In this document: piece after piece, positions 13,074-44,798 of the stretch | How the letters are laid out: each line of letters opens with the position of its first letter | Numbering within the stretch: position 1 is the first letter of the stretch | IMG/VR virus record: IMGVR_UViG_3300035665_000001 | Span: 186,001 to 250,000 of that record | DNA length: 64,000 nucleotides | Origin: a virus | Direction: 5' to 3' (one strand) | Notes under the pieces: generated by a model | What the model saw: the letters and a program-made list of their open reading frames with translations, nothing else | Told to the model about the DNA's origin: nothing | The model's database searches: none | Translations under genes and position numbers: made by a program

Positions 13074-14204
13074 ATGAAAACTAAAAATTATCATTATGTT
13101 TACAAAATTACAAATCATAATCCAGTAGATTCACGTAAGTTCTATATTGGTGTTAGAACAACGAAAGGGCGATTACCAGAAGATGATATTAATTATATGG
13201 GTTCATCAGATACATTAACCGCTGCAATTAAAACCCAAGGAAAAAAATATTTTTCTAAAGAAATTTTGTCAGTATGGCAATCAAAGGATGATGCATATGC
13301 TGAAGAAATAAGATTACATGAATTGTATGATGTTTGTAGAAACATGGAATATTATAATAATGCTAACCAAACGAGCACTAAATTTTGTACGGATGGTAGG
13401 GTTGTAGTGTTTGATAAGAACACGGGCAAAACAAAAAGTGTAACAAAAGAAGAATTTCAAACTGTTACTGATTATGTTGGTGTTAAAACAGGTATGGTTT
13501 CCGTAATGGATACTACCGATGGAGTATTTAAATCAGTGTCAAAGGAGGAATTTGAAAAATCCGAACATTATATTCATCCTGCAACTGGTAAAGTAACCGT
13601 GATTGATACCACCGATGGTTTAGTTAAACATGTGAACTGTACAGAATATAGAAGTTGTGAAAATTATGTTTCTATCGCTACTGGAACTGTAACGTGTTAT
13701 GATATTAGAGATGGAAAAAACAAACAAGTTTCTAAAGATGAATTTGATAATGCTGATAATTTAATCAGTTGTAATGCTGGAAAAGTTACTGTGCTTGATA
13801 CTCGTGATGGAATTAAGAAATCGGTAACTAAGGTAGAGTTTGATATTACCTCTCATTATGTCGGTGTTAAATCTGGTAGAGTTACCGCTTTCGATATTCG
13901 GGACAAAAAGTTTAAAACTGTTACGATTGAAGAATTTGCAAATGATGATAATTATGTGAAAGGTAATTCCAAAAAAGTTGTTATTTTTGATAATAATGAT
14001 AATGTGGTTTTTGTATCTTATGGCAATTTTGAAACTTTTTGTAAAAAACATAAATTGCCGTGCTTTGTATTTAGAATGTCATATCGTAATAATGGCAGTC
14101 CAATCTATCAAAATTTAAGAGGCGTAACAAAAGCAAAGATATTTAAAAATGGAAACTACAAATATATCGGTTGGTATGCTAAAATTAGTGATGATACAAC
14201 TTAA
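13074..14204 (+). CDS. GIY-YIG homing endonuclease with internal repeats
   Basis: A free-standing homing endonuclease that would cut an unoccupied target site and copy itself in. The GIY-YIG domain is N-terminal: YVY at 8-10, YIG at 24-26, then R28-like arginine and a Glu-containing helix (AYAEEIRLHELYDV). From about residue 108 to 310 there are roughly six repeats of about 33 residues on the theme GKVTVIDTTDG...KSVSKEEFE...HYI, apparently a DNA-contacting linker. The C-terminal KNGNYKYIGWYAKI resembles a DNA-binding tail. Its stop overlaps by 4 bases the stop of the terminase C-terminal fragment, so it sits exactly at the edge of a fractured gene. Confidence 0.8.
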   Translation: MKTKNYHYVYKITNHNPVDSRKFYIGVRTTKGRLPEDDINYMGSSDTLTAAIKTQGKKYFSKEILSVWQSKDDAYAEEIRLHELYDVCRNMEYYNNANQTSTKFCTDGRVVVFDKNTGKTKSVTKEEFQTVTDYVGVKTGMVSVMDTTDGVFKSVSKEEFEKSEHYIHPATGKVTVIDTTDGLVKHVNCTEYRSCENYVSIATGTVTCYDIRDGKNKQVSKDEFDNADNLISCNAGKVTVLDTRDGIKKSVTKVEFDITSHYVGVKSGRVTAFDIRDKKFKTVTIEEFANDDNYVKGNSKKVVIFDNNDNVVFVSYGNFETFCKKHKLPCFVFRMSYRNNGSPIYQNLRGVTKAKIFKNGNYKYIGWYAKISDDTT

Positions 14205-15511
14205 AAAACAGAAGGGAGAATATCCCATTTATCCATATCGGAGTCAGGATCATAATCATCATCCTCATCATATTCTACAACAGATGAACCATTTTGTGCC
14301 ATTCTGGCGTAGTATTCTCTTTCCTGTTTCTTTGCTTCTTCAATTAATTTTAGTTCTTCCTGTTTTTGTTGTTCTAATCGCAAAGTTTCTTTTTCTACTC
14401 GTTCTTTATATAATTTCGCAGGATCAATTTCTTCTTTATTGGTGTTGATAATTTTTTCATCTTTTTTAGTAATCAACATATTATCAACAGAAAAATCACC
14501 CATCGCGTAGTTTGCGAATTCATTAAGAAGATAATATACCATTAAGAATGAACAGGTGACTCTATCGTCAGTATAACCAGATTTAGCACAATACGCCCCA
14601 CCAGCTGTTCTAATAAATCCATATAATTCCTCAATAAATCTTCCATCTCGAATTACCATTTTGTCGTACTCAACCAAATTTTTAAATTGTAATGCTAGTT
14701 TATTTTTAAGAGTTGGGGTTATGTGTAATCCAGGTTTACCCTTAATATCATAGAAGATAGGCATTTCAAGATTTTCGATTGCCTTTTCAGTTTGGGTTAA
14801 AATTTGAGCTAATCCCTCACCAATACCATTACGTTCAAAGATAATAAGTGCTTCATTTGGTTCATACTGCCATCTTGTTCGCATGTAATCCTGTAACCAT
14901 AATAATTTTTCAAATAGTACTGATGCATCAGCAAATTCATCGACAAAAGAGGCGATTTCATAAACCTTATGTGGTGCTATTTCCCAAATTTGTAAACAAC
15001 TACTATTATTACCACCTGCGGATGGGTCAATAGTTACCACTAACAAACCATCATCGTGCTCCAATTTATCTTTAAAAATATTAAAACCATTAACATCCTC
15101 CTCAAGAATTTCAGGTATTTGGTAAAAATCTAAAATATCTGTAGAAATTAATGAAAGTTCGAAAGTGATGAAAGCACAATTATGGGTTTTTAATGAATTA
15201 GCCAATAAAAAACTGTGCTCATCGTTTTCAACCTCAATAATATCAAACATTTTGGTAAAATTGTGAATTTCATTGATTTCCTCCACCTCACACAAACCCG
15301 TTTCGGTTTTTAAATCAAACCCCACTAATAAATCTTTTGCTTTTATTAACAGGTTATTTGATGTCCAAAATAAATGTTCACCAGAACATTTTACCGAAAT
15401 ATCATTGCTTAATTTTATTTCAAAAAACGAATTATGTTCAGATGATGCTATTCCTGCAAACGCTTTGTAACCTTCAGGAGTTTTTATTTTAAATCTATTA
15501 TTTTTTACCAT
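14201..15511 (-). CDS. Terminase large subunit, C-terminal piece fused to C-terminal split-intein half
   Basis: The first 111 residues are a C-intein: TPEGYKAFAGI, a block-B-like region with CSGEHLFWT, block F MFDIIEVENDEHSFLLAN, and the splice end THN followed by Cys112. There is no block A, so the N-intein must be elsewhere. The candidate is the 46-residue tail of the ORF at 44010, because EFE there plus CAFITFELSLIS here rebuilds the T4 gp17-like EFECxF region. Residues 112-436 are the terminase nuclease: TIDPSAGG (D162), an ERNGIGEG motif and TDDRV. The tail is a charged coiled coil. The terminase would need trans-splicing from distant loci. Confidence 0.88.
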   Translation of the reverse strand: MVKNNRFKIKTPEGYKAFAGIASSEHNSFFEIKLSNDISVKCSGEHLFWTSNNLLIKAKDLLVGFDLKTETGLCEVEEINEIHNFTKMFDIIEVENDEHSFLLANSLKTHNCAFITFELSLISTDILDFYQIPEILEEDVNGFNIFKDKLEHDDGLLVVTIDPSAGGNNSSCLQIWEIAPHKVYEIASFVDEFADASVLFEKLLWLQDYMRTRWQYEPNEALIIFERNGIGEGLAQILTQTEKAIENLEMPIFYDIKGKPGLHITPTLKNKLALQFKNLVEYDKMVIRDGRFIEELYGFIRTAGGAYCAKSGYTDDRVTCSFLMVYYLLNEFANYAMGDFSVDNMLITKKDEKIINTNKEEIDPAKLYKERVEKETLRLEQQKQEELKLIEEAKKQEREYYARMAQNGSSVVEYDEDDDYDPDSDMDKWDILPSVF

Positions 15512-15615
15512 GAATTTTTTCTCAAATTAATGTAATTAAACTATATTTATGAATTTTTTGTTGAAACAATTACAAAAATAAATAAATATAATAAAATTAT
15601 AATTTGGAGAAAAAA

Positions 15616-16422
15616 ATGACGGTAGTAAACCAGAGTGATATTAAAAGTGGTTCAAAACCTGTTAGGGATTTATTTTCATTACTACCAAAAGACAGAGATT
15701 ATGGTTGGTTGTGTACGCAAACCTATTCAAATGACGATCTTGTCGAAATTTCATATATTGTGAATAATATTGAGAGTCCACATATCAAGAATTTTGGTTT
15801 TTTTAACTTACTGATACAGAGTCAAGCTGGACCATTCAATTCTGCTGTTTTTGCTGTCTATTTAAAAGAGTTAAATGCTGTAGATGTTCTAATTCATTTG
15901 ATCGCAAAAACCCCTAACTTATCAGAAAAAGAAAAAATTGCTTGGTTGGAAAACCCAAATATTATATCTAAAGGTTTTATGACAATGGTTAGATATTTTT
16001 TTGATCATGGTGTTGCCGCACAATGTGGAATTTCTAATACTAAATCACCATATAATGTGATATTTGCAAAAGAAATAATGGTATATGGTTATAGTACAAA
16101 TCATGATCGATTAAAAGACTTTTTATTTGGTTCGTTAAATTCTTTGACTCCTGCTGAATTAGATTCATGGTATCGTGAAACTCTTTTTATGATTTGTGGT
16201 GAGGATAATTATGTAGCAGTTGATGTGTTGGGTGATTATCCAAATACACCCGAAAATTTGTTGGATGACTATTTTTCACATACTCAAAACACTGCGTTGA
16301 AATTGAAATTGGCTTTGCATAAAAATTTCCCAGTAAAAAAAATATATCCTATATGGAAAGAAACTGAAAATACCATATTGTATGATAAGTTACCAGCGTC
16401 AATAAAAAGCTTGATATTCTAA
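15616..16422 (+). CDS. Helical protein with shared C-terminal peptide
   Basis: A protein of 268 residues from the ATG preceded by TTGGAG. Unrecognised; helical, with repeated short units such as NTPENLLDDYFSHTQ like those of the solenoid proteins at 7781 and 52049. It ends YDKLPASIKSLIF, the recurrent C-terminal peptide, although it lies 6 kb from the minus-strand cluster and on the other strand. That makes the peptide unlikely to be a simple by-product of tandem duplication. Confidence 0.62.
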   Translation: MTVVNQSDIKSGSKPVRDLFSLLPKDRDYGWLCTQTYSNDDLVEISYIVNNIESPHIKNFGFFNLLIQSQAGPFNSAVFAVYLKELNAVDVLIHLIAKTPNLSEKEKIAWLENPNIISKGFMTMVRYFFDHGVAAQCGISNTKSPYNVIFAKEIMVYGYSTNHDRLKDFLFGSLNSLTPAELDSWYRETLFMICGEDNYVAVDVLGDYPNTPENLLDDYFSHTQNTALKLKLALHKNFPVKKIYPIWKETENTILYDKLPASIKSLIF

Positions 16423-16426
16423 GAGT

Positions 16427-16458
16427 GAGTTGGTTGATAGATTGTTTTCAACCAACTC
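16427..16458. terminator. Bidirectional hairpin terminator
   Basis: A perfect 11-base inverted repeat (GAGTTGGTTGA / TCAACCAACTC) with a 10-base loop lies between the converging genes ending at 16422 (+) and 16467 (-). T-rich sequence on each side supports termination in both directions. Confidence 0.75.
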
Positions 16459-16466
16459 ATTTGTAA

Positions 16467-16967
16467 TTATACCAACTTACTCAATAGGTAAGTTTTATGT
16501 TTATTATTGTTAAAAACAAACATCACCTCATTTTTTTCTGTATTTTCATACAATTTAAATTTCTTGTAAATTGAAATTAATTGAGTAATTGGTGCAGTCA
16601 TAGTAACCATATTCACTCTTACATTTCTATCATAACAGAACGCTTGTAGGTCAGTAATATTTTTACCAAAACTTCCAAGATAATTGAAATTTTTAAGGTC
16701 GATTGCTTTTTCTGGTGAGGTTCCTAGAGTTTGATCTGTTACGGGAACTAATTTGTTTCGAGTTAATCTGAATGTCCCTTCAAAATCAATTTCTTCGGGA
16801 TTGTCATATACAATCATTGTTTTATCATTAATGCACGTCAAATATTCATTACATGCTGATGTATAAAGATTTGTTTTTTCACGTTGTAAATTTTTAAAAC
16901 TTTTTAACACTTCACGGTTAACATTGTCAATAATATCTAGGTTTAATGCTTCCACAACTATACTCAT
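16467..16967 (-). CDS. Small protein of unknown function
   Basis: A protein of 166 residues from the ATG (MSIVVEALNLDIIDN) that has a GGAG site nine bases upstream; longer in-frame starts reach 17048 but lack a site. Mixed alpha/beta, with no recognised motif. It is divergent from the gene at 17066, and the spacer holds a TATAAT-like box at about 17025-17033 for that gene. Confidence 0.55.
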   Translation of the reverse strand: MSIVVEALNLDIIDNVNREVLKSFKNLQREKTNLYTSACNEYLTCINDKTMIVYDNPEEIDFEGTFRLTRNKLVPVTDQTLGTSPEKAIDLKNFNYLGSFGKNITDLQAFCYDRNVRVNMVTMTAPITQLISIYKKFKLYENTEKNEVMFVFNNNKHKTYLLSKLV

Positions 16968-17065
16968 CGGTAAATTCTCCATTTTTAATTTATTTTGAAT
17001 TATTTTACAAAAAAATAAAAATTTAGTATAATTCTTTTGGAATACCAATAAATACGGAGAATTCT

Positions 17066-17827
17066 ATGTTCATATCATGGTTAGAAAAAAAATGTTATCC
17101 AAACCATCCAATATCTTTGACCGCTGAAGAATGGGTTGAATGGGAAAAGGTAGAAAAATCAAAACCAATTTGTAATTTTTGTGTTAATGTAGTTCCTCAA
17201 TGGTGTAAAAAATATATTACTAGACCCCTATCAAATGCACAATATTGGTTTTTATATCGGTTTGTTAAAAAACACAAATATCATTTAATTGATACTGGAT
17301 TGTTACCAGGCTATTATGATGTGGATACTCGTATTTTTCATGGTGTTTTTAATTTGATGAAAGAATTTTGTGAGGATGAACAACCTAGAAATGATTGGAT
17401 GTGGGAATCTGATAAAAATTCTAAAAAATTTGTTCCTGGATTTAATGCAGCGATTGAATCTTTTAAATGGCAAAAAGAATTGGTTTATACCTCGGATGAT
17501 GTCTGGGATATTGAAAATCAACATCTTATTGGTACACCACAACCACAGGCTTTAGTTGCTAAAGAATTAGAAGAAATCTATATTTGGTGGGTGGTAACTA
17601 GACCAAATCGAGAAGATCCATATAAAAAATTTCAGGATTTTTATTTTGAAAATCTTTTGCGAGAAAAAGGTTCCAGTATGTCACTATTATGTGCGAGATC
17701 ACCAGAAGAAGAAGAAAAAAGAGCATTGGTAGTTGCACAACGAGATGAATTAGAAAAGCAGTATAAAGATGAGGATGAAAATATGCTACTTAGATTGATA
17801 AAAATTAGACATTCTTTATGGACATGA
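17066..17827 (+). CDS. Conserved-looking phage hypothetical protein
   Basis: A protein of 253 residues, rich in Trp and Tyr. The segment DTGLLPGYYDVDTRIFHGVFNLMKEF resembles, from memory, a recurrent hypothetical family of large phages (pattern GYxDxDxxxxHxxFxLxxxF), but no function is known to me. The C-terminal 80 residues form charged helices (PEEEEKRALVVAQRDELEKQ). An upstream TATAAT-like box and GGAGA site support expression. It opens the 17-43 kb plus-strand accessory block. Confidence 0.65.
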   Translation: MFISWLEKKCYPNHPISLTAEEWVEWEKVEKSKPICNFCVNVVPQWCKKYITRPLSNAQYWFLYRFVKKHKYHLIDTGLLPGYYDVDTRIFHGVFNLMKEFCEDEQPRNDWMWESDKNSKKFVPGFNAAIESFKWQKELVYTSDDVWDIENQHLIGTPQPQALVAKELEEIYIWWVVTRPNREDPYKKFQDFYFENLLREKGSSMSLLCARSPEEEEKRALVVAQRDELEKQYKDEDENMLLRLIKIRHSLWT

Positions 17828-17924
17828 TGTTATTTGGGATTGTTATGTGAAATATTATTTTAGTTGTCGACATTCAATAACATATAAATATTCTGTTTTT
17901 AAAAAATTAATCGAGATTACGAAA

Positions 17925-18365
17925 ATGAAAAAAATATTATTACTGGCAATTTTATCATCGATACACCAAAATGCTCATGCTTTAAAAGTTATAGATAATG
18001 TAGTTGTCCCTATGGGTGCTGGAATTGCAGGAGCAATGATTTATCAGTCAATTAGTAGTGATGATAATCGGAGAAATAACAATCAGTATAACTCAGATTA
18101 TAATCGAAATACTTATCAATATAATAATACCTACCAATACAACAATAGTTATGGTCGAACCAATGATTATCAGTATAATAGAAACCACTACGATAACCAA
18201 TATGATTATAACAGTGATTACAGTAGAAGTAGAGATAATGAAAGAGAATATGAAGAACGACAAATTGAAAGAGATATTATTAGAGAAGAAAAAAGAAAAT
18301 TGCGATACTGTAAATATTTGTTAAATACACAACAACTTAATATGTATCGTTATAAATGTCAGTAG
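17925..18365 (+). CDS. Secreted low-complexity Asn/Tyr-rich protein
   Basis: A protein of 146 residues from the internal ATG at 17925. MKKILLLAILSSIHQNAHA is a typical Sec signal peptide with A-x-A cleavage. It is followed by a glycine-rich hydrophobic stretch (VPMGAGIAGAMIYQSI), then about 60 residues of Asn/Tyr/Arg/Asp low complexity and a charged helix. It should act outside the cytoplasm of the infected cell; the role is unknown. The upstream extension to 17847 is unlikely to be translated. Confidence 0.6.
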   Translation: MKKILLLAILSSIHQNAHALKVIDNVVVPMGAGIAGAMIYQSISSDDNRRNNNQYNSDYNRNTYQYNNTYQYNNSYGRTNDYQYNRNHYDNQYDYNSDYSRSRDNEREYEERQIERDIIREEKRKLRYCKYLLNTQQLNMYRYKCQ

Positions 18366-18410
18366 TTGAAACACGAATCAGATATTGTGTTAATTTTTTT
18401 GGAGTTAATT

Positions 18411-18596
18411 ATGAGTAAATTTATTTTACCGTGTTGTATTGGTTATATATTGATTAATTTGAATCATGTGATTTTTGGATATTCAGTTCATGATGATGTA
18501 ATACAGTTAATCAGTCATATGTTTTTACTGTTTTCGGAAATTTTTGTTATTGAATCCCTGATAAAATGGTTTAATAGACATGAAAATGTTGTATAA
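18411..18596 (+). CDS. Small membrane protein
   Basis: A protein of 61 residues from the ATG preceded by TTGGAG. It has two hydrophobic stretches (FILPCCIGYILINL and LISHMFLLFSEIFVI), so it is probably an inner-membrane peptide. It is followed by a charged end KWFNRHENVV. No family recognised. Small membrane proteins recur throughout this block (22178, 22299, 22983, 34510, 36718). Confidence 0.5.
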   Translation: MSKFILPCCIGYILINLNHVIFGYSVHDDVIQLISHMFLLFSEIFVIESLIKWFNRHENVV

Positions 18597-18647
18597 TAAT
18601 ATTGAAAGTTACAACCATTAACACTAATTTTTTGAGTAGATAACACA

Positions 18648-19625
18648 ATGCATACAGCAACAGACATCAAAAATTTAAAAGAAATTAAAGATTTTCTTGA
18701 TGAAAACGGATTAGAATATAGCACTGAATATGATAACTTTTGCCTCCATTATGGTAATCCAGATGGTAAAAGGTCTTATGAAATTTGTTATGTTGCATCA
18801 CACGAATACCCTATATCATACAAACAATATGGCATTGCAGGAGTGGATGCCGCATATTTTTATGAATTGTCTCATAAAGCAGAACACGAACAAAATTCCT
18901 TTAAATGTTGGGTTAAAGATTATGAATGGGCTGATGATAGAAAAAGAGAAGTGTTAAAATCTTACTTTATGCACGCAGCTGGTAAAACACGTTATAAATT
19001 TTATGCAAGGGATTGTGAAGTTCGTGAAGTTTCTACTCCAGTTGCTAGAAAATTTGAAAGTGAAAATTGTTTTTATGGTAAACGAGGTGCTTCTTTAAAT
19101 TTAGGTCTTTATTTGCGAAAAGAAAAAAATGGATTACCAGCTGGTACATTGATGATGATTTATACTTTTGGTAAAAACTTTTTTGGAAAGGATGATTCTA
19201 TTGAAGTTTTGCGTGTAGGAACTAAAAAGTTTTCGAATGTTGTTGGTGGAGCATCTAAGTTACTAAAGCATTTCATTTATAATTACCCAGTGTTGCGAAT
19301 CGGTGCAGTTGATGTTCCCGTAACCGTTTTGAAATTCTATAGTGATTATGACCATAACATTGGTAACAGTATGGACGAATTAGGATTTAAGTTTGTAAGT
19401 TATTCGGGTGGTGGATTTATGAATTACTGGGTTGCTACTGGAGAAGTAAAAGGTAGACAACCAAACAAACACAAATGGGTTATGGAACAAATGAAAGAAG
19501 GAAAAGTATTGGCAATTCCAAATGCTGGGGTAAAAACCTTTGTAATGTATGTTGATAGATCAACTTTACCACCACCTCCAGAAAAAATTATCGATCCTAA
19601 TGTTGGACCAGAAGTTCTTTTCTAA
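18648..19625 (+). CDS. Protein with GNAT-like domain related to homing-endonuclease-associated proteins
   Basis: A protein of 325 residues. The middle and C-terminus match a domain I recall from phage homing-endonuclease-like proteins, with an acetyltransferase-like layout: YARDCEVREVSTPVARKF, then LNLGLYLRK...GTLMMIYTFGK, RVGTKKFSNVVGGASKLLKHF, and LKFYSDYDHNIGNSMDELGFKF followed by NYWVATGEV. The first 100 residues are different and unassigned; no nuclease motif (GIY-YIG, HNH, PD-(D/E)xK) is visible. It could be a retained, nuclease-less relative of a mobile protein. Function uncertain. Confidence 0.6.
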   Translation: MHTATDIKNLKEIKDFLDENGLEYSTEYDNFCLHYGNPDGKRSYEICYVASHEYPISYKQYGIAGVDAAYFYELSHKAEHEQNSFKCWVKDYEWADDRKREVLKSYFMHAAGKTRYKFYARDCEVREVSTPVARKFESENCFYGKRGASLNLGLYLRKEKNGLPAGTLMMIYTFGKNFFGKDDSIEVLRVGTKKFSNVVGGASKLLKHFIYNYPVLRIGAVDVPVTVLKFYSDYDHNIGNSMDELGFKFVSYSGGGFMNYWVATGEVKGRQPNKHKWVMEQMKEGKVLAIPNAGVKTFVMYVDRSTLPPPPEKIIDPNVGPEVLF

Positions 19626-19656
19626 AAAAATTATTTTGTGTACTAAAGGATAAAAA

Positions 19657-20718
19657 ATGAAAATACAAGAACGATTAGAAAATGAAATTTTATTTATAAA
19701 ATTTGGAAATATTAATTTAGAGCAGTTTATTAGGATGGTTGGTTTGAAAATAGATGGTATTGCTAGTGTTGAAATTAGTAGTACCACTAATACGATAATT
19801 AGTGTGCATAAATCAAATGCACGTAGATTGGAGGTGTGTTTTGAATTAACATTAAATCTCTATAATAATTTTTTCTTAAATTGTGATAGAGATATTAAAA
19901 CTGCTTTAAAGAAACTATCAAAACATTCTAAAAAATATGATATTGAATTACTGGAAGTTAAAGATAGTTTTGCAGATGGTGAAAATAGATTTATCAGTTT
20001 TAAATTTAAACCACCCATAAAACAAATATTCCCATTAAGTACAAGAAAAAAAGAGATTTCAACTGATACAATCCGAGATATTATTGGGTTGAAAAAACAT
20101 TTAGATTATTCGGTTATTTCTGATAGACCTGTGAATAATGGGTGGCAATACATTTTCCATGTGTATGATATTGATAAATTTAGTTTACATTATATTGATA
20201 TGGAATTACAACGATCAAAAATATCAAAAGATTATTACATTAAAGTATTTTGTGATAAGTATGCTGATATTAGGGTAGTGCTTCAAAATAAAAAATCTAA
20301 ACAGTTTTTTAAAAATTGCATTCCCCAAATCACTATTCCACATTTAACTGCTATTCTTAGAACTAACGATTATGCTTTAAGTGGTGCATTTACTTACCAG
20401 GATGAATATGCCGCTGGGTTAAAATTTACTAATTTGTTTTTACCAACTATAAATGAATTTTTGGATTTTGATTATGTAGTCAACGAAATAAAACCTTATT
20501 TTAAAGAATATTATCATATTGAAACGAATGTAAGTGAAAATATGATTCGGTTTGTGGATAAAAGTGTTGATGCTAGATACAACCCCGAAGATTTGAGTGA
20601 TTCAATTATTCGTATCGTTCTTGAAGATGTAAAAGTAGAAAAGTTGTCGATACATGATGCAACGGAAATTATAAAATTGCATTTTGAACAAATAATCGAT
20701 AAATTGGTTACATCATAA
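19657..20718 (+). CDS. Protein of unknown function
   Basis: A protein of 353 residues, alternating beta strands and helices, with two roughly parallel halves (RFISFKFKPPIKQIFP, ITIPHLTAILRTNDYALSG). No catalytic motif recognised. It is preceded by AAAGGA and followed, 31 bases on, by the gene at 20750, so the genes 18648-21720 probably form one transcript. Function unknown. Confidence 0.6.
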   Translation: MKIQERLENEILFIKFGNINLEQFIRMVGLKIDGIASVEISSTTNTIISVHKSNARRLEVCFELTLNLYNNFFLNCDRDIKTALKKLSKHSKKYDIELLEVKDSFADGENRFISFKFKPPIKQIFPLSTRKKEISTDTIRDIIGLKKHLDYSVISDRPVNNGWQYIFHVYDIDKFSLHYIDMELQRSKISKDYYIKVFCDKYADIRVVLQNKKSKQFFKNCIPQITIPHLTAILRTNDYALSGAFTYQDEYAAGLKFTNLFLPTINEFLDFDYVVNEIKPYFKEYYHIETNVSENMIRFVDKSVDARYNPEDLSDSIIRIVLEDVKVEKLSIHDATEIIKLHFEQIIDKLVTS

Positions 20719-20749
20719 CACTACACACATTATTGTTGGGGTTACTAAA

Positions 20750-35742: not shown

Positions 35743-35751
35743 TTTTTTTAT

Positions 35752-36939: not shown

Positions 36940-37098
36940 TGGTAGACCATCGATTACATAATATGTGAATTAACTAACTTTTCAACTAAGGGGTGTGTTA
37001 ATGAACAACATTGATGAGGATATTTTTGATGAATACTATCTAAGTCGGAGTAGATGTACACAATAATCCACTAATTAAAATGTTTGAGGATGAAAAAA

Positions 37099-37488
37099 AT
37101 GTTTGAACCTGCAAAAGAAATGTTACATAAAGCAAATGAAAATTTTAAAGCACTTTTTGAAGAGAAGATTACTGAAGTTGGTCCATGTATTCAAGAAGCA
37201 CTATTTGATGTGGCTGCTAAGGGAGAGTATAAAACTACCATCATATTTACTGGTCGTTCACATCGCAATCCAATTGGTTGGATACCAAACAACTATGTCC
37301 ACTATAATGAAGAAGATACAATGCTCAGTGCATTAACTGAGTTCTTTTGTGAACAATTGACTAATGATGGTTATGGTGTAGTTACCCAAATGGTTAAAAA
37401 TGATATAATTGTGATAACGATTTTTTTTAATCCTATGAAGACAAATAAAATGGGTACAAATTTACATGCAGTAGGTAATGGTTACTAA
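37099..37488 (+). CDS. Small protein of unknown function
   Basis: A protein of about 129 residues; ATG at 37099 has GAGG nine bases upstream, ATG at 37090 is also in frame. Helical N-terminus (PAKEMLHKANENFKALFEE), then an alpha/beta domain. No family recognised. Confidence 0.5.
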   Translation: MFEPAKEMLHKANENFKALFEEKITEVGPCIQEALFDVAAKGEYKTTIIFTGRSHRNPIGWIPNNYVHYNEEDTMLSALTEFFCEQLTNDGYGVVTQMVKNDIIVITIFFNPMKTNKMGTNLHAVGNGY

Positions 37489-37639
37489 GACGGATGAGTA
37501 AACGGAACAACAAATTATCTTTGAATTGTATCAAACGTCAACTAATGTTACCTGGGATATATTAACCTCAATTCAGAACAAACATATTTTGAGTGGGTGA
37601 TTACGTTTAGGATAAAGATTATGCCCCCAGTTTACGGAG

Positions 37640-37803
37640 ATGATGATTATTTCTGGTAGTATCCACCAATATGGTATAATATAATTTTTGAAGGTGATAT
37701 GCGCATTTAATAGAGTTAGATAATTTTAGTACTAAATGATGAGAATATTGGATATATGGTTGAATTATATTTAACAAATTCCATCAGAGTTAGAGCTATT
37801 TAA
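37640..37803 (+). pseudogene. Scrambled DUF1566/Lcl remnants
   Basis: The stretch 37489-37867 has no gene. It holds fragments of the Lcl family: ISGSIH-like sequence near 37650 and a short frame ending NSIRVRAI at about 37780-37802, matching the family's terminal YVRAI. Two TGGTATAAT-like boxes are also present (about 37672). The pieces are too small to reconstruct a copy. Confidence 0.45.
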
Positions 37804-37867
37804 TATGGTGTGTCACATGGTGAGTGGGATTAGAGATAGATTATCAATTATACTGAGTAATATAAAA

Positions 37868-38644
37868 ATGAATATTAATGAAGAAATTGCTGAAGTAAAA
37901 TCAATTATTGCAGTTCAAGAAAAACGATTAGCTGAATTAGAAAAGCAATCAAATGAATTAACATTTGAAATAGCTCCGGAGTTATTAGAAAAAGGCAATG
38001 TGGATTGGTATGAGGCGATTAACTATTGTAAATTGTTAGGTAATGGTTGGCGACTTCCATCTCGGGATGAACTGAAAATAATTTATAACTCTGATAATGA
38101 CTTGAACGAAAACAGTACGTATTGGTCAGCTACAAGGGGTAATAATGATCGTCTTGCTTTTAATCAAAGTATGTATAATGGGGATCAATTTATTTCGGAT
38201 AAAAGTTTTAGTTCCAATGAATATCGAGTTAGACCGATAAGGGATATTATTAGACCAAATTTATCGTTTGAAGTAGTTAATAAATCGACTGAGATTCAAG
38301 TGGAATGGGATAGTGTGGATAAGCATTGTAAACCGTTAGGTTTATCAACTACCGATGAATTACCGTTTGAAATTTCTCCTAAATCATGTGAAAAACAATG
38401 CAATTGGTATGAAGCATTTGAATATGCTGAATTTGTGGATCAAGGTTGGAGAATACCCACAATAGATGATTTAAAGCTTATTTTTCAAAACCGTAAAGGT
38501 ACAAATATGGAGCTTGGTGTTTATTGGACAAAAAATGTATATGGGCATACCGCTTTAGGTATTAATATGCTGAATGGATTACAACAACCGTATGGTAAAG
38601 AAATGGGTAACAACTACATTAGGCTAATTCGGAATAAAAAATGA
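37868..38644 (+). CDS. DUF1566/Lcl protein with a degenerate middle domain
   Basis: A protein of 258 residues from the ATG at 37868, which matches the leader of its relatives (INEEIAEVKSIIAVQEKRLA). Domain 1 is complete (FEIAPELLEKGNVDWYEAI to YRVRPIRDI). Domain 2 is cut down to about 35 residues (FEVVNKSTEIQVEWDSVDKH). Domain 3 is complete but diverged (FEISPKSCEKQCNWYEAFEY to YIRLIRNKK). Codon use is AT-rich throughout, unlike the variable copies. It overlaps the next gene by 4 bases. Confidence 0.7.
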   Translation: MNINEEIAEVKSIIAVQEKRLAELEKQSNELTFEIAPELLEKGNVDWYEAINYCKLLGNGWRLPSRDELKIIYNSDNDLNENSTYWSATRGNNDRLAFNQSMYNGDQFISDKSFSSNEYRVRPIRDIIRPNLSFEVVNKSTEIQVEWDSVDKHCKPLGLSTTDELPFEISPKSCEKQCNWYEAFEYAEFVDQGWRIPTIDDLKLIFQNRKGTNMELGVYWTKNVYGHTALGINMLNGLQQPYGKEMGNNYIRLIRNKK

Positions 38645-39153
38645 ATATAAAGAAAGAGACGATGTACACATTTGATGGGTTGAAAAACGCATGTCGAAAT
38701 GAAGTAATTGATTTTATTGAAGAATTGATGAAAGAAATTGACTTTCAACCTACTTGGTATGACCATAAGGAATCTGATTCTGATTTGCCTCGAGTACCAG
38801 TAACACCATCTGGGACATATATGTATGCCTTAAAAGTAATTAACAGTAGATGTAAAGAGTGGGAACATTTAATAATGGAGGAACCCAAATATTCGTATTT
38901 GTATGCATTAAACGTAATTGGTGGGAGATGGGAAGAGGCAGAACCAATTATTATGACTGATCCACAGTATGCATATTCGTATGCCATTGAGGTGATTAAA
39001 GGTAGATGGGAGCTAGGAGAGACTGTTATTAAAGAAGATTCCTATTATGCCTATTTGTATGCCCGAGATATACTTAAAGAGAGGTGGTGGGATGCTGAAC
39101 CTTATATAATGGAAACATCATGGTGGAAAAGGTATATACGTGATCTTGGATAA
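38641..39153 (+). CDS. Repeat protein ('YALxVIxGRWxxAExxI' repeats)
   Basis: A protein of 170 residues with four tandem repeats of about 33 residues: YMYALKVINSRCKEWEHLI, YLYALNVIGGRWEEAEPII, YSYAIEVIKGRWELGETVI, YLYARDILKERWWDAEPYI. Each is a pair of helices, and the repeats are spaced evenly. I recall this type of repeat from phage and bacterial proteins with unknown role. The first 45 residues are acidic and unrelated. Confidence 0.65.
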   Translation: MNIKKETMYTFDGLKNACRNEVIDFIEELMKEIDFQPTWYDHKESDSDLPRVPVTPSGTYMYALKVINSRCKEWEHLIMEEPKYSYLYALNVIGGRWEEAEPIIMTDPQYAYSYAIEVIKGRWELGETVIKEDSYYAYLYARDILKERWWDAEPYIMETSWWKRYIRDLG

Positions 39154-39230
39154 TTGATTCAAAATTATCTTTAGTAAATGTAGAAAACGAATAGGTTGAA
39201 TTTAGTGATCATACTGTAATAGGGTTTAAA

Positions 39231-39521
39231 ATGAGAAATGTGCAAGAAATAGCTGAAACTTTGATTAGCGAAGGTGTATTAGAATGGGTAGACAGTAATG
39301 AATTACCGTTTTATGAGATATTTGATGTATCTGATAATTATATTTTAGAACTTGATTACCTTGTTAATGATGATTATCCAATTAGATATAGAATTTGCTA
39401 TGTCAATATATCCGATGAGAAAATTGATTTTATCGGGTGTGAAGATGATAATATGCGATTACCACTCGATGGGTTGTTGGATGAATCAATTATGCATATA
39501 TATCAAAAAATATCAATTTAA
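39231..39521 (+). CDS. Small acidic protein of unknown function
   Basis: A protein of 96 residues, acidic with alternating strands (YRICYVNISDEKIDFIGCED). No family recognised. The start follows AGGGTTTAAA. Confidence 0.5.
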   Translation: MRNVQEIAETLISEGVLEWVDSNELPFYEIFDVSDNYILELDYLVNDDYPIRYRICYVNISDEKIDFIGCEDDNMRLPLDGLLDESIMHIYQKISI

Positions 39522-39602
39522 TATGTTGAGTGTTACAATCAATAGTTAAATTAGTCTTCAAAATTTGATGTCTACTGATAGACAAAAAAGAGGTATTGAA
39601 AA

Positions 39603-39833
39603 GTGTTTACTCACGAACAGGATATTGATAACGCATTGTTTGATATTGACCAAATGCACAAAAAATTAGCTGATCACGTTTGTTGGGTGTCAAATGTTAT
39701 GCGTGATCTTGATAATACGGAAATTGAGAAATTAAAAACACTGGTCACTGAGTCAGGTGCAATTGAAAAATTAAAACAAGGTATTACTGATTTTGAAGCA
39801 ATGTTGGATCATCGAGGAATTAAAAATGAATGA
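39603..39833 (+). CDS. Small helical protein, paralogue of 26882
   Basis: A protein of 76 residues with a GTG start after AGAGG. The order of helices and the motif IEKLKQGITDFEAMLDH match the protein at 26882. The upstream 90 bases also match. Its end overlaps a short Lcl remnant. Function unknown. Confidence 0.55.
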   Translation: MFTHEQDIDNALFDIDQMHKKLADHVCWVSNVMRDLDNTEIEKLKTLVTESGAIEKLKQGITDFEAMLDHRGIKNE

Positions 39834-39918
39834 AAAAAGTTTAAAATCGACTGGTGTTCAACTCAGTAAATCCCACAAGAATTACATCAGCTACGTGCGT
39901 ACAGTAAGAGATCTCTAA
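39826..39918 (+). pseudogene. Terminal fragment of a DUF1566/Lcl variable segment
   Basis: A 30-residue frame, MNEKSLKSTGVQLSKSHKNY then ISYVRTVRDL. The second half matches the end of Lcl domains (NYVRPIRDL) and keeps the C-ending codons (AAC/TAC/ATC/AGC type) of the variable copies. The rest of the domain is missing. Confidence 0.55.
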
Positions 39919-39954
39919 ACAGATAATAGAAACCATTTAACAAGGAAATCTATA

Positions 39955-40338
39955 ATGAATCACCAACCACCAATATCTATCACCAAAGAACACTATGACA
40001 ACAGAGATGTAATTTATTCGGATACATTGTTTGTGGTATGGATGCCAGATAATACCAGAAGAAAAACAATCGAACTAGCTATCAATGCAGTACGTTTATC
40101 TTGGCTTGATTTATCTTGGGCTAATTTAGCACATGACGATTTATCTGGGTTAGATTTATCGGGTTTGGATCTTTCTTATACTAATTTAACGTTTGCAAAT
40201 TTGTCAAATGCTAATCTAACCAATGCGAATTTATTTCAAGCAAGTTTACGTGGTGCTGATCTTACGAACACCATGATAAATAATACAAATCTTCAATATG
40301 CTGATTTAAGTTATACATTATTAAAAAATGACAGATAA
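39955..40338 (+). CDS. Pentapeptide-repeat protein
   Basis: A protein of 127 residues. From about residue 45 onward it consists of A(D/N)LXX-type pentapeptides (LDLSWANLAHDDLSGLDLSG, then TNLTFANLSNANLTNANLFQ, ASLRGADLTN), about 14 in all, giving a short right-handed quadrilateral beta-helix. Some such proteins mimic DNA and inhibit gyrase; most have unknown targets. AAGGAAA site. Confidence 0.75.
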   Translation: MNHQPPISITKEHYDNRDVIYSDTLFVVWMPDNTRRKTIELAINAVRLSWLDLSWANLAHDDLSGLDLSGLDLSYTNLTFANLSNANLTNANLFQASLRGADLTNTMINNTNLQYADLSYTLLKNDR

Positions 40339-40362
40339 TTTTACAATTTTTTTAAAAATCTC

Positions 40363-40391
40363 TTGACACCTTGACTTGTTTAAGGTATAAT
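40363..40391 (+). promoter_or_regulatory. Consensus sigma-70-type promoter
   Basis: TTGACA, 17 bases, TATAAT, both perfect, 38 bases upstream of the ATG at 40429. Confidence 0.85.
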
Positions 40392-40428
40392 ATTACTATC
40401 AAATTATTATTAGAAATATTCAAAATAT

Positions 40429-40614
40429 ATGCATGAAAAAGTAAAACCATTTTTGCCTGTTTACACTAGACCACCAAATGTCTTTTTGCGATATGAAGAA
40501 ACAAGATTTGATGATGGATATGGGCATACAGGTATAGCTAGAACAGCATTCTTTTTAACTAAAAAGAAAGAAGAAATGTCAATGATTGCCCAAATTATTT
40601 GGGATAACTTATGA
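40429..40614 (+). CDS. Small protein of unknown function
   Basis: A protein of 61 residues behind a perfect promoter. It is basic and aromatic at the N-terminus (VKPFLPVYTRPPNVFLRYEE), with a helical end. No family recognised. Ribosome site weak. Confidence 0.5.
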   Translation: MHEKVKPFLPVYTRPPNVFLRYEETRFDDGYGHTGIARTAFFLTKKKEEMSMIAQIIWDNL

Positions 40615-40624
40615 GGATTAAATA

Positions 40625-40876
40625 ATGAATTTGTACTTGTTGGAACAAGAAGAAAATAGTGGTTATGATACTTATGATTCTATGGTAGTAGCAGCAGAAA
40701 CTGAAGATAAAGCCAGATTAATTCATCCAAATACTTGGTTAGATAATCCTTGGGATAGAACAAAATTTAATAGAGATTGGGCAACTTCTCCCGATCAAGT
40801 TTCTGTTAAGTTAATCGGAACAGCGGTAGAAGGAACAAAATCTGGTGTGATTTTATCATCATTTAATGCAGGTTAG
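40625..40876 (+). CDS. Small protein of unknown function
   Basis: A protein of 83 residues. MNLYLLEQEENSGYDTYDSM followed by VVAAETEDKARLIHP resembles a recurrent small phage protein type ('YLLxQ...YDTYDSAVVAAESEEEARxIHP') known to me only as hypothetical. GAGGA site. Followed by the gene at 40890. Confidence 0.6.
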   Translation: MNLYLLEQEENSGYDTYDSMVVAAETEDKARLIHPNTWLDNPWDRTKFNRDWATSPDQVSVKLIGTAVEGTKSGVILSSFNAG

Positions 40877-40889
40877 ATAAGGAAAGAAT

Positions 40890-41402
40890 ATGCCTTTTAA
40901 AAAACATAGAACTGATTGTATATCAGAGTATGCAAACACAATTGCAAAGTTGTCTGTAGAGTTGGCTGTTTTAGGTACAAACCGGGATGATGCTGTTAAA
41001 TGTACCACAAAATTGATTAGTACCCTATTGAATAAATTGATGTTGAGTCCAGGGGCAGTAGAGATTCTAAAACATGATTTAAAAAATAATGTTATTCCAC
41101 TGTATAATTCTACTATTAAAAATGAGAGTGAAAATCAATATCCTACACCTGTTAAACAAAAAAAGTTAACGGTGGATTTTAATTTCGATTTGGAGAGAAT
41201 GAAAGTTGCGGTTGAATCAAAAAAAATTGAGATTCCAAAACATGCTTTAGAAAGTTTTGAAGCTTTTGATGCCTGGTTGAATGATGATGAACTACCTAAA
41301 AAGCAAATTTGTCCACAGAAAGTAAATGGACATTGTCCACTACATAATTTGTTTTGTAAATATCCAGAATGTGAGAAAATCCCTTTAGGGATGGGTAATT
41401 GA
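40890..41402 (+). CDS. Two-part protein sharing a module with 33335
   Basis: A protein of 170 residues. The N-terminal half is helical; residues about 93-128 (FNFDLERMKVAVESKKIEIP and on) match the start of the protein at 33335. A C-terminal Cys cluster (ICPQKVNGHCPLHNLFCKYPECE) looks like a small metal site. Function unknown. About 145 bases without a gene follow. Confidence 0.55.
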   Translation: MPFKKHRTDCISEYANTIAKLSVELAVLGTNRDDAVKCTTKLISTLLNKLMLSPGAVEILKHDLKNNVIPLYNSTIKNESENQYPTPVKQKKLTVDFNFDLERMKVAVESKKIEIPKHALESFEAFDAWLNDDELPKKQICPQKVNGHCPLHNLFCKYPECEKIPLGMGN

Positions 41403-41548
41403 CAATCAACTTTTTGCAGAAATTATCAAATCATTGCACCACTGATAATAGTAAAAAAATTGTAATAATAGAAATCGTATTGGTTGCAGAGATGTCTAAA
41501 GATTCTCTAACTATCCAATCACTTTTTTGAGTAAAGGTAGGTATAATT

Positions 41549-41809
41549 ATGAAAAATGCTAAAGCCGAAATTGTAGAAATTGTATCAAAAATTAATCCTG
41601 ATTTGGTTAGTCATGTTGATTTACTAAACATTGATAAGGCATGTTTTCAGTGTGGTCATTTTAACAAAAATTTAAAAGATGTAGATGTATATCGATGCTA
41701 TAATATTGGTACGTGTATATCGGCAACATTACATCCCGAAATCACTGATAAAATTTGGAGTGAATACACTGAAAATTTTTGGAAAGATGTTGATTGTGGT
41801 ATAATATAG
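41549..41809 (+). CDS. Small Cys-containing protein
   Basis: A protein of 86 residues with CFQCGHFNKN and two further Cys (YRCYNIGTC), a plausible four-Cys zinc site. AGGTAGG site. Function unknown. A TGGTATAAT box at its very end may drive the following genes. Confidence 0.5.
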   Translation: MKNAKAEIVEIVSKINPDLVSHVDLLNIDKACFQCGHFNKNLKDVDVYRCYNIGTCISATLHPEITDKIWSEYTENFWKDVDCGII

Positions 41810-41816
41810 GTGACAG

Positions 41817-41996
41817 ATGAAAGTGTATGTGGTTTACTATACCGATGGTTTAGGGATGTCAGATCGTTTTTGTGGTGTGTTTGATTCTCCCGAATCATGT
41901 ATTACATTTATCGATCGTCAAGATTTTAGTTGGTATTATGATTGGTTTTCATCAAAAGTATTATCTAAAGATGATCTAACATTGGATGATGTTTAA
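41817..41996 (+). CDS. Small protein of unknown function
   Basis: A 59-residue ORF starting 7 bases after the previous stop with an overlapping AGGTGA site. MKVYVVYYTDGLGMSDRFCG then FDSPESCITFIDRQDF gives a small alpha/beta protein. Unrecognised. Confidence 0.45.
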   Translation: MKVYVVYYTDGLGMSDRFCGVFDSPESCITFIDRQDFSWYYDWFSSKVLSKDDLTLDDV

Positions 41997-42020
41997 AACT
42001 ATTATGGATTGTGGGTAAAA

Positions 42021-42233
42021 ATGGCACAAATTGAAAACCCAGATTTAAAAATTTTTAAAGTTGTTTTAACAGAATATGAACGTGGCTGGGGATCTAAAAT
42101 CTGGGACACATTGTATTTTGATAATGAATTAGAAGCAAAAACATTTGCTACTGACTACAATCAACAAAATAATAGTGATTCTTATGTACCCGATTGGTAT
42201 GTTAGTGCGACTTATGAAGGTAAAGTAAGATAA
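42021..42233 (+). CDS. Small protein of unknown function
   Basis: A protein of 70 residues from ATG 42021 (an upstream TTG at 42009 is open). Beta-rich with a helix, KIFKVVLTEYERGWGSKIWD. Unrecognised. Confidence 0.45.
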   Translation: MAQIENPDLKIFKVVLTEYERGWGSKIWDTLYFDNELEAKTFATDYNQQNNSDSYVPDWYVSATYEGKVR

Positions 42234-42245
42234 TGATGGTTGATT

Positions 42246-42521
42246 ATGAAATATTATAACAGTAAGATAAGAGAGTTGGCTAATAAAACTGCGAATGAAA
42301 TAGCGGATCAATTTGCAATAGGTTATTTTGATGATCGTATGGTTGAATTACATTCTGACATTATAGAAAGAAATATGCTCACAATCGTGGATTTGTGCTC
42401 TCTAATAATATTAGAAGATGATAAGAAACAGGTTTCAATGTTTGATAAATTATTGAGAAATGATGCAGAGGAAATGCATAATCTTAGTAAAAAAATTAAA
42501 CTTTATTTTGGTGTGTTATAA
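42246..42521 (+). CDS. Small helical protein of unknown function
   Basis: A protein of 91 residues from ATG 42246. The opening SKIRELANKTANEIADQFAI recalls the 'I-x-E-L-A' small proteins at 25931 and 42947. Its stop overlaps the ATG of the next gene by one base. Confidence 0.5.
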   Translation: MKYYNSKIRELANKTANEIADQFAIGYFDDRMVELHSDIIERNMLTIVDLCSLIILEDDKKQVSMFDKLLRNDAEEMHNLSKKIKLYFGVL

Positions 42522-42640
42522 TGCATACATATATACAGAATATTGCCGATCAGGCTACCGAATATGCCAGTTTAAAGAAAAATTTGGTATGTGTTCAACT
42601 GCAAATGGTAATTAAACCGATGTTAAGAAAATTAAAATAA
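42521..42640 (+). CDS. Very small helical protein
   Basis: A 39-residue ORF beginning on the last base of the previous stop. MHTYIQNIADQATEYASLKK resembles the first helix of the 42947 family. Possibly a truncated relative. Confidence 0.35.
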   Translation: MHTYIQNIADQATEYASLKKNLVCVQLQMVIKPMLRKLK

Positions 42641-42694
42641 CTATATTACATTAAAAAATAGTAATAACAGAATCTAATGGAAATAGGAATTAAT

Positions 42695-42907
42695 ATGCAT
42701 GAAAACGTAAAACGAATTATTGATCAGTGGGATGAAATTTTAGATGATGAAGCTGATTTTGATGTCGAGTTAGCTAAATTGGTGGAAATAGTTGTTTTTG
42801 ATGTTATCAACAATATCAATGATGTTAAATATGAATCTGGAAAAAGTCTTTCTAAAATTATTGAAACTGTGATTAAAAACCATTATGGTTTAGAATATGA
42901 ACATTAA
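42695..42907 (+). CDS. Small acidic helical protein, paralogue of 43209
   Basis: A protein of 70 residues from the ATG preceded by AGGA (alternative at 42677). The plan VKRIIDQWDEILDDEADFDV, a second helix, then LSKIIETVIKNHYGL matches 43209 (IQKLISKFDDNFLDKNDSFE ... LAKTINHAVNKHYE). Tandem duplication with a different gene between. Function unknown. Confidence 0.5.
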   Translation: MHENVKRIIDQWDEILDDEADFDVELAKLVEIVVFDVINNINDVKYESGKSLSKIIETVIKNHYGLEYEH

Positions 42908-42946
42908 AAATAGATATTTGTTGGTTTACCATTTTGAGTTGAATTT

Positions 42947-43204
42947 ATGAATGAAAAAATTAAAGAAATTGCAACTAGGTGTAATTGGGTAGATTTAACT
43001 GGCGACGATAACTGGATCAACATTGAAGCTAATAAACGTGGTTATTTCACTGAAAAAGATTTAGAAAAGTTTGCAAGAGAGATAGTAAAAGAATGTATTG
43101 GTGTGTATGTGACCATTGCAAATGGTAATTATGTTGAGGATACCGATGATTACATTGTTGCGATTGGAAAAACATTTTTAACTGAGCGAAAAGTGGAAGA
43201 ATGA
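42947..43204 (+). CDS. Small phage protein, relative of 25931
   Basis: A protein of 85 residues: MNEKIKEIATRC, then LEKFAREIVKECIGVYVTIA, the same two-helix plan as 25931. Function unknown. Confidence 0.55.
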   Translation: MNEKIKEIATRCNWVDLTGDDNWINIEANKRGYFTEKDLEKFAREIVKECIGVYVTIANGNYVEDTDDYIVAIGKTFLTERKVEE

Positions 43205-43208
43205 TATT

Positions 43209-43424
43209 ATGGTCACCAAAATTCAAAAATTGATAAGTAAGTTTGATGATAATTTTTTAGATAAAAATGATTCATTCGAACAAATGATGGAAAAATTTGC
43301 TACATTGGTGATTTCTGATGTACTATATGTAGTAAACGATGAATTACAATATGAAATTGGTTTTGGGTTAGCAAAAACAATAAACCATGCAGTAAATAAA
43401 CATTATGAAATAAAGGATGATTAG
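43209..43424 (+). CDS. Small acidic helical protein, paralogue of 42695
   Basis: A protein of 71 residues, see 42695 for the shared plan. It starts 4 bases after the previous stop. Function unknown. Confidence 0.5.
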   Translation: MVTKIQKLISKFDDNFLDKNDSFEQMMEKFATLVISDVLYVVNDELQYEIGFGLAKTINHAVNKHYEIKDD

Positions 43425-43509
43425 AGTCCACACAAAACATAACTGATATGGTGTTATATTGATTATATTATCAGTTGGTTATTTAGAAAAACATTTTGAG
43501 AAAAAACAT

Positions 43510-43737
43510 ATGACAGATAATAATGTAGTGAAAAAAAAAGTTGTTACATACCCAATTATTGGTATTTTTCCAAAAACTGGAAACATAGTATTATTTTCAT
43601 CTTTGACCACTGGAACTTTTTTAAAATGTTCAGAGAGTTGTACACTTAAAGTGGGAACAACCATTTCTAATTTTGCTCGCAATTGGATTCCCTATCCAGG
43701 GATGTTAAACATGTCAAACGATATATTATCCAGGTAA
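43510..43737 (+). CDS. Small beta-rich protein of unknown function
   Basis: A protein of 75 residues from ATG 43510 with a GAGAAAA site (an upstream TTG at 43459 is open). VTYPIIGIFPKTGNIVLFSS looks like a beta sheet. Followed by a strong terminator hairpin, so it is the last gene of the 17-43.7 kb block. Confidence 0.45.
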   Translation: MTDNNVVKKKVVTYPIIGIFPKTGNIVLFSSLTTGTFLKCSESCTLKVGTTISNFARNWIPYPGMLNMSNDILSR

Positions 43738-43746
43738 AGAGTAATT

Positions 43747-43780
43747 AAGAAACCCCATATTTCAATTTGTGGGGTTTCTT
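43747..43780. terminator. Hairpin terminator
   Basis: Perfect 11-base arms AAGAAACCCCA / TGGGGTTTCTT around a 12-base loop close the plus-strand accessory block. The next 230 bases (43781-44009) carry no gene; they contain two TTGACA-like boxes (about 43789 and 43911) that may serve the terminase fragment. Confidence 0.75.
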
Positions 43781-44009
43781 CCACAAAAAATTGACACAAC
43801 CGTATATTTTCTTCAGAGTACACATTATGTCACTCAATTCAACAAGCCGGTAATCCTCAAAAATTTGTTAAAAATTCCAACACACGGGTATCTCACTACC
43901 CATAAGTTGACAAAAAATTGGTATTAATTAATTACGTTGACTTTTTTCATCACCTTGCTAAAAATTATAAATAGAATAACATCAGCAAAAAACTATTTAG
44001 AGTAAGATA

Positions 44010-44798
44010 ATGAAAGATATTAATGAGTGGGAGATTTTAACTCCAGAGGGATGGCGTGATTTTTCGGGAATTATCCAATTAGATAAGAAAGTTATCACTA
44101 TTGAATTTGATAATGGTAAACAGTTAACAGGTAGTGAAACACATCGAATTTTTTCTAAAATTGGAATACAAGAATTTAACACTTTAATGGTTGGTGATGA
44201 AATCAAAACCAATGATGGTTGGACTGTGGTAACTAAAATTTCAGATGTAAAACAAACTCAGAAAGTATATGATTTGGTAGAAGTAAAATCAGCTAACCAT
44301 CAATATTATACCAATGGTTTTGTTTCAAAAAATTGTGATGAGATTGCGTTTATTCCCAACAGAATTCAGGAAGAATTTATGTCTGGCACAACACCGGCTC
44401 TTTCTGCTACAAAAGGAAAAATGTTAATTACCTCAACGCCCAATGGTTCGAGAGATTTATTTGCGAAACTTTGGTTTGGATCCGGTATGACATGGGATAA
44501 AAAACAATATACATACGTCAGAAAAAATGAACCAAAAAACCTTTTTAGTCCATTATTTGTACCTTTTTGGATTGACCCAGAAAAAAACACTGATGAATGG
44601 ATTCACAGAGAAAAGATGACTCTCGATAGCCCAATAGCATGGAAAATAGAGTTTGAATGTATGTATCCAGATACGTTGATTGATGTATATGATGAAAAAA
44701 CTAAAAATTATCAAACAATAACTATAGAAGATATGTATCGAATGATACTTCGAGATGAAATTGAGAATAAAGTTATTATTGATGAATCTGATAATTAG
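44010..44798 (+). CDS. Terminase large subunit, middle piece flanked by two split-intein halves
   Basis: Residues 1-108 are a C-intein: ILTPEGWRDFSGI, a block-B-like GSETHRIF, LMVGDEIKTNDGW, block F VYDLVEVKSANHQYYTNGFV, end SKN then Cys109. Penultimate residue is Lys, not the usual His. The extein (109-216) is the ATPase Walker B and coupling region of a T4 gp17-like terminase: CDEIAFIPN with catalytic DE, then MLITSTPNGSRDLF. After EFE a second intein begins at Cys217 (CMYPDTLIDVYDEK, TITIEDMYRM) and stops after 46 residues. The N-terminal Walker A piece is not in the window; the next piece is at 14201 on the other strand. The design resembles the AceL-TerL split intein as I remember it. 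Confidence 0.88.
   Translation: MKDINEWEILTPEGWRDFSGIIQLDKKVITIEFDNGKQLTGSETHRIFSKIGIQEFNTLMVGDEIKTNDGWTVVTKISDVKQTQKVYDLVEVKSANHQYYTNGFVSKNCDEIAFIPNRIQEEFMSGTTPALSATKGKMLITSTPNGSRDLFAKLWFGSGMTWDKKQYTYVRKNEPKNLFSPLFVPFWIDPEKNTDEWIHREKMTLDSPIAWKIEFECMYPDTLIDVYDEKTKNYQTITIEDMYRMILRDEIENKVIIDESDN

Follow-up and report, generated by a model that had tools for sequence, protein, structure and literature searches.

In Synechocystis, the two halves of DnaE are encoded hundreds of kilobases (kb) apart on opposite strands. Fractured genes, in which split inteins accompany free-standing homing endonucleases in essential phage genes, were reportedly described by Dassa and colleagues in 2009. Cyanobacterial DnaE halves are the products of separate genes located in distinct genomic regions (PMC7765530), and the inteins AceL-TerL and GOS-TerL are atypically split, with an N-half of 25–37 amino acids (aa; PMC11766414). 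For the large terminase gene (terL), known phages form a series that runs from intact terL through cis inteins to neighbouring split genes accompanied by a GIY-YIG endonuclease (G003, Vibrio VP-1, 1.244.A). Here, we analyzed a 64,000-nucleotide (nt) stretch, the window, comprising bases 186001–250000 of virus record IMGVR_UViG_3300035665_000001 (called G000; 306,333 bases), and read the whole record. We propose that the large terminase (TerL) of this T4-type jumbo phage is very probably made as four separately encoded polypeptides, which three split-intein trans-splicing reactions would join.

The original prediction held that the open reading frames (ORFs) at 44010 (+) and 14201 (−) of the window encode complementary TerL parts of the gp17 type, joined at EFE/CAF (slashes mark splice junctions) and lying far apart on opposite strands. 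Frames, strands and junction sequences are as it described them, and the pairing is borne out by the alignment to gp17 and by the matches of the joined product. Its count of two pieces was too low: we find four pieces and three split inteins, and ORF 44010 is a middle piece, with a C-intein at its start and an N-intein at its end that belong to two different inteins. The additional TerL pieces and half-inteins came from a scan for intein ends and inspection of the full record (a simple search for N-intein motifs proved too stringent and recovered only N3). The Walker A piece, which was to be sought in the rest of the genome, lies left of the window, divided over pieces 1 and 2. Neither a complete terL gene nor any further TerL place beyond the four pieces was found in a six-frame search of the 306-kb record. 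All four frames are open (Table 1). Their order in the genome is 2, 1, 4, 3, with 14.8, 59.9 and 28.5 kb between successive partners and a total span of 61.4 kb over both strands; pieces 1 and 2 lie on one strand in the right order, about 15 kb apart, with largely tail-fibre-like genes between them.

The joined extein comprises 602 aa. At least 80% of it is matched in each of 973 phage records; the matches listed have E-values as low as 8e-45 and identities of about 30%. In Pfam, the joined product matches Terminase_6N (3e-11) and GpA_ATPase (2.7e-6), and neither window piece (3 or 4) by itself matches a terminase family there; in PHROGs, each of the two separately has a terminase match. The alignment of the joined product to T4 gp17 (3ezk; E 4e-35) crosses all three junctions and is ungapped there, placing SRQMSK-TTIGAF on SRQLGKTTVVAI, KFVY-CDEIAFIP on MIYIDECAFIP, and FE-CAF opposite AAF. 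The motifs aligned to gp17 (Walker A/B, coupling motif and nuclease acidic triad) are SRQMSKTT, VYCDE, TSTPNGS, TIDPSAG, IIFERNG and GYTDDR; all ATPase and nuclease motif positions are present, distributed across the pieces. In Walker A, Ser replaces the usual Gly, as it also does in G002 (IMGVR_UViG_3300026521_000003; 289,880 bp), a relative found by a DNA pattern for N/CDExAFIP in viral contigs. Alignment-based scans gave no close relatives beyond G002, and single-protein scans with pieces 3 and 4 gave nothing new. By end-to-end similarity and motifs, the predicted joined product is a T4-type large terminase (gp17 / Terminase_6N). An AlphaFold2 model of piece 4 from a two-row alignment had a mean confidence (pLDDT) of 42 and was not used.

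Judged by their sequence layout, the TerL inteins are members of the atypically split class (AceL-TerL type), with a short N-half carrying Cys1 and a long C-half. The N-halves of inteins 1, 2 and 3 measure 32, 33 and 46 aa, and the C-halves, counted from the earliest possible start, 129, 108 and 111 aa. All three sites retain Cys1, the block B His and the terminal Asn, with Cys or Thr at +1; the C-halves end in HN/T, KN/C and HN/C. Partners were paired according to insertion site. The best match of N1+C1 is a Vibrio phage VP-1 cis intein at the same GK/TT site, over its length (41% of 160 positions), and N2+C2, the pair compared with solved inteins, is closest in the PDB to consensus CatC (6dsl; E 2.5e-7), with VidaL a weak match (E 0.04). 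G003 has a cis intein at site 2 and L044 has one at site 3; the L044 comparison does not alone single out N3+C3. Between G000 and G002, C2 and C3 are 54–56% identical, as against mostly 24–33% across sites, with C1 versus G002 C2 (41%) as an exception.

In the assembly we propose, each N-half (32–46 aa) would dock on its C-half (108–129 aa), complete the intein fold, excise itself and ligate the flanks. Piece 1 (SRQMSK) would be linked to piece 2 (TTIGAF...FVY) within Walker A, then, immediately ahead of Walker B, to piece 3 (CDEIAF...EFE) and finally to piece 4 (CAFITFEL, nuclease), giving a single 602-aa ATPase-nuclease. Each middle piece combines the C-half of one intein with the N-half of another, and mispairing would circularise pieces or leave some out; orthogonality of the pairs is thus required. 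We infer both that splicing occurs and that the three pairs do not cross-react. It seems likely that three mutually orthogonal split inteins build one protein here, that gene order and strand are thereby uncoupled, that the at least seven matched pairs in this phage (TerL 3, NrdA 2, UvsX 2) form a large natural orthogonal set working in one cell, and that TerL activity needs all four late transcripts.

Table 1. TerL pieces, intein halves, putative promoters and flanking endonuclease genes in G000.
Feature	Record coordinates	Window coordinates	Strand	Remarks
TerL piece 1	184957-185400		-	...LLASRQMSK/CVKGNSIITV; break inside Walker A; left of window
TerL piece 2	169358-170113		-	...ILSHN/TTIGAF...LKFVY/CLDGKTQ; left of window
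TerL piece 3	230001-230798	44010-44798	+	...FVSKN/CDEIAF...KIEFE/CMYPDTLI
TerL piece 4	200201-201526	14201-15511	-	...LKTHN/CAFITFEL
C-half of split intein 2, 108 aa		44010..44333	+	ends YYTNGFVSKN/CDEIAFIP; N2+C2 resembles CatC 6dsl
Piece 3 extein, 108 aa		44334..44657	+	Walker B CDE, ITSTPNGS, up to EFE; from gp17 alignment
N-half of split intein 3, 46 aa, and stop codon		44658..44798	+	CMYPDTLI...DESDN
C-half of split intein 3, 111 aa		15179..15511	-	start of piece 4; ends SLKTHN
Piece 4 extein, 325 aa, and stop codon		14201..15178	-	starts CAFITFEL; nuclease domain, acidic motifs DPSAGG, ERNG, DDRV
TATAAATA, T4-type late promoter core		43966..43973	+	44 nt upstream of piece 3
CATAAATA, one-mismatch late promoter-like site		15544..15551	-	40 nt upstream of piece 4
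Vsr/DUF559-like endonuclease gene, candidate (ex-)homing endonuclease		44807..45970	+	directly after piece 3; phrog_22677 E 5e-23, phrog_13076 endonuclease E 1.6e-4
SegE-type GIY-YIG homing endonuclease		13074..14204	+	tail to tail with piece 4

We estimated the ratio of nonsynonymous to synonymous rates (dN/dS) between G000 and G002 by the Nei-Gojobori method; synonymous sites are near saturation, so the values are rough. Exteins 1–4 gave 0.14, 0.12, 0.12 and 0.23, by which all four are under purifying selection, and of the intein parts, C-halves 2 and 3 gave 0.20 and 0.22 and N-half 2 gave 0.22. Several observations weigh against four-piece trans-splicing. N-half 3 shows 29% identity between the two phages and a dN/dS of about 0.8, and the penultimate His found in C1, C3 and G002 C2 is Lys in G000 C2. 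Only in G000 are pieces 1 and 2 seen apart (a near-identical contig repeats piece 2), and its record is linear and metagenomic, which makes misassembly conceivable. Three split inteins together are also risky, because the atypically split, short-half inteins are those that cross-react in laboratory tests (PMC7090010).

The lost His of C-half 2 and the fast evolution of N-half 3 would equally suit non-covalently associating subunits whose intein halves are non-splicing remnants, and enzymes in pieces without splicing do exist, such as the phage NrdA split by a homing endonuclease that passages in PMC10448857 and PMC3322345 cite. Unligated halves are nevertheless unlikely to catalyse, because the breaks cut Walker A (K/T) and fall one residue before the DE of Walker B. 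Since the splicing residues (Cys1, block B His, terminal Asn, +1 Cys/Thr) are also kept at all three sites, with a dN/dS of about 0.2 for C-halves 2 and 3, we consider the subunit explanation highly unlikely.

Misassembly or a chimera, with pieces that are truly adjacent or come from different phages, could be suspected not only from the linear metagenomic record but also from the tail-fibre repeats between pieces 1 and 2, a region in which the near-identical contig G001 appears to end. However, G002 independently has piece 4 far off on the opposite strand, among collinear neighbours, and piece 3 at the same locus, and piece 2 and its neighbours recur in L014, a near-identical 140-kb contig. 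Even if the pieces were adjacent, their own starts, stops and intein halves would still give separate proteins. These records rule out misassembly for piece 4 and make it improbable for the arrangement as a whole, and we assign it a very small probability.

In G002, pieces 1 and 2 form one unsplit protein that aligns without gaps to the G000 join (SRQMSKTT). Piece 3, with both half-inteins, lies 3.6 kb downstream of this fused piece, and piece 4 lies on the opposite strand, 79 kb away; extein identity to G000 is 65–77%. By ORF-by-ORF comparison, the two phages are collinear around piece 4 and likewise around piece 3, and the remote position of piece 4 is therefore older than the split between G000 and G002. 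The original prediction, which took the layout for a tolerated genome rearrangement, needs correcting in that the remote place of piece 4 is not new: a recent rearrangement of this piece was rejected, as G002 shows synteny around it and likewise carries it at a distance on the opposite strand. The left neighbour of the fused piece 1+2 (G002 273797–274312) corresponds to G000 187579–188118, near piece 1, in an inverted block. Comparison of the two genomes suggests a stepwise history in which site 3 separated first and the Walker A break and further separation came later, in the G000 lineage. At its origin, mobile inteins probably entered three recurrent TerL sites and then split, with homing endonucleases nearby; ordinary genome rearrangement could later separate the pieces because joining acts between proteins.

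Joining of the messages by split introns might be considered in view of the terL of a group II Campylobacter phage, IBB_35, which is reported with an intein and an intron (PMC3322345). Each half-intein, however, shows intein motifs and forms an open frame that has a start or stop of its own. RNA trans-splicing, to which we give next to no probability, was rejected for want of any intron match: Rfam, group I and II introns included, gave none in the 104 kb spanning all four TerL pieces. No more credible is a decaying pseudogene with TerL provided by a helper phage or the host, since the lack of an intact terL, in a record that may be incomplete, stands against open frames, kept motif positions, strong purifying selection on the four exteins and the same design in cultured Campylobacter phages.

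Expression of the four pieces can be approached through the T4-type late promoter core TATAAATA, which precedes 24 of 223 long ORFs in sense orientation at a distance of up to 100 nt, against 1.9 expected; the capsid gene is among them, and the spacing is 31–58 nt in all. Over the whole records of the two jumbo phages G000 and G002, it is strongly enriched 28–60 nt upstream of long ORFs. Besides its site before piece 3, this core lies 78 nt upstream of piece 1 and 47 nt upstream of G002 piece 4. Piece 2 has a one-mismatch version upstream; for the one-mismatch site before piece 4 the evidence is weak, as 21 of 223 antisense controls also match with one mismatch. G000 also carries an ORF for a gp55-like sigma factor. 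Separate late transcription units are plausible on these motifs, and the pieces would then be co-expressed from late promoters.

The SegE-type GIY-YIG gene beside piece 4 is absent from the corresponding place in G002. A paralogous GIY-YIG gene adjoins piece 2 tail to tail (G000:168080–169351, +), and both copies have repeated VIDTxDG-like units. Other genes of this phage are in pieces as well. UvsX/RecA consists of three neighbouring pieces (+; window 55177–55470, 55522–56856 and 57946–58614) with two split inteins; its first N-half has only 18 aa and lies inside Walker A (GDSG/CLLPHEKIKVYEFKSNIV), with a partner C-half ending HN/SGKS. NrdA comprises three adjacent pieces (+; G000:106990–108756, 108775–109890 and 109977–110468), also with two split inteins, and is intact in G002 (67370–69823), which marks the G000 break as a recent fracture. 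That the NrdA and UvsX breaks are newer or unscattered in G000 fits the idea that scatter follows splitting. A DnaB-like helicase C-terminal piece with a C-intein (THN/SASGD) is found at G000:159019–159603 (−) and G002:225480–226100 (+); its N-partner piece with the ATPase core was not found in either record. The portal protein gp20 (G000:63427–66627, +; 1066 aa) contains two cis inteins, and the G002 portal (100792–102291), with 499 aa, is without them. DNA polymerase B is divided into separate exonuclease and polymerase ORFs (G000:246953–248692 and 257090–257830, both +), with an endonuclease gene after the first and no intein seen at the break in G000. An ABC transporter-type ATPase (GPSGCGKSS, MSGGEQQRVALARA) is encoded at window 48057–48968 (+).

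If correct, four-piece trans-splicing shows how far an essential gene can disperse when joining takes place at the protein level, and it offers a natural trio of atypical split inteins in which cross-pairing must be avoided, a requirement on which this class most often fails in laboratory tests (PMC7090010). It also completes a graded series for study, from intact terL, cis intein and adjacent split to the half-scattered G002 and the fully scattered G000. A further consequence concerns phage classification, whose usual marker, TerL, can be overlooked or wrongly counted where it is fragmented.

A close parallel is found in cultured Campylobacter phages. In CP30A (circular; NC_018861), one TerL piece (49486–50202, −) ends IDE/CVAGDTKITV, and the other (74590–75918, +) begins with a C-intein ending SHN/CAFI. 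The N-piece occurs in 39 records and the C-piece in 39 at at least 95% identity, and in the records compared (NCTC12673, CPX, CP81 and CP30A) the pieces lie 22–27 kb apart on opposite strands. Fletchervirus TerL genes are annotated as two separate terminase entries or as hypothetical proteins, and we found no description of the Campylobacter two-piece TerL as trans-splicing in the literature searched. Accordingly, we rejected the notion that G000 has the only known scattered split terminase, and the view that split-intein genes usually remain neighbours proved only partly true, with cyanobacterial DnaE (PMC7765530) and Campylobacter TerL both scattered. The TerL of G000 is in kind a split-intein fractured gene; to our knowledge, its four pieces, three inteins and full scatter are undescribed, and we found no TerL described with more than one split intein, nor with three together, in the literature searched.

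Like G000, the Fletchervirus TerL (CP30A, NCTC12673, CPX and others) has a split intein near Walker B and pieces on opposite strands, but it consists of two pieces with one intein, inserted two residues further on. The G000 inteins resemble AceL-TerL, GOS-TerL, Cat (6dsl) and VidaL (6vgv) in their short N-half, long C-half and TerL host gene. Fractured genes are comparable to G000 TerL and take their ordinary adjacent form in the terL of G003 and of Vibrio 1.244.A and in G000 NrdA; their layout of neighbouring halves with an endonuclease between is seen in G003 and loosely at G002 site 2, but not in G000 TerL, whose endonucleases stand beside pieces 2, 3 and 4. Cyanobacterial DnaE shares the scatter with G000 TerL, yet it is a cellular gene with one break and a canonical split. 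Compared with T4 gp17, finally, the predicted joined product of G000 is similar from end to end and is encoded by four genes instead of one.

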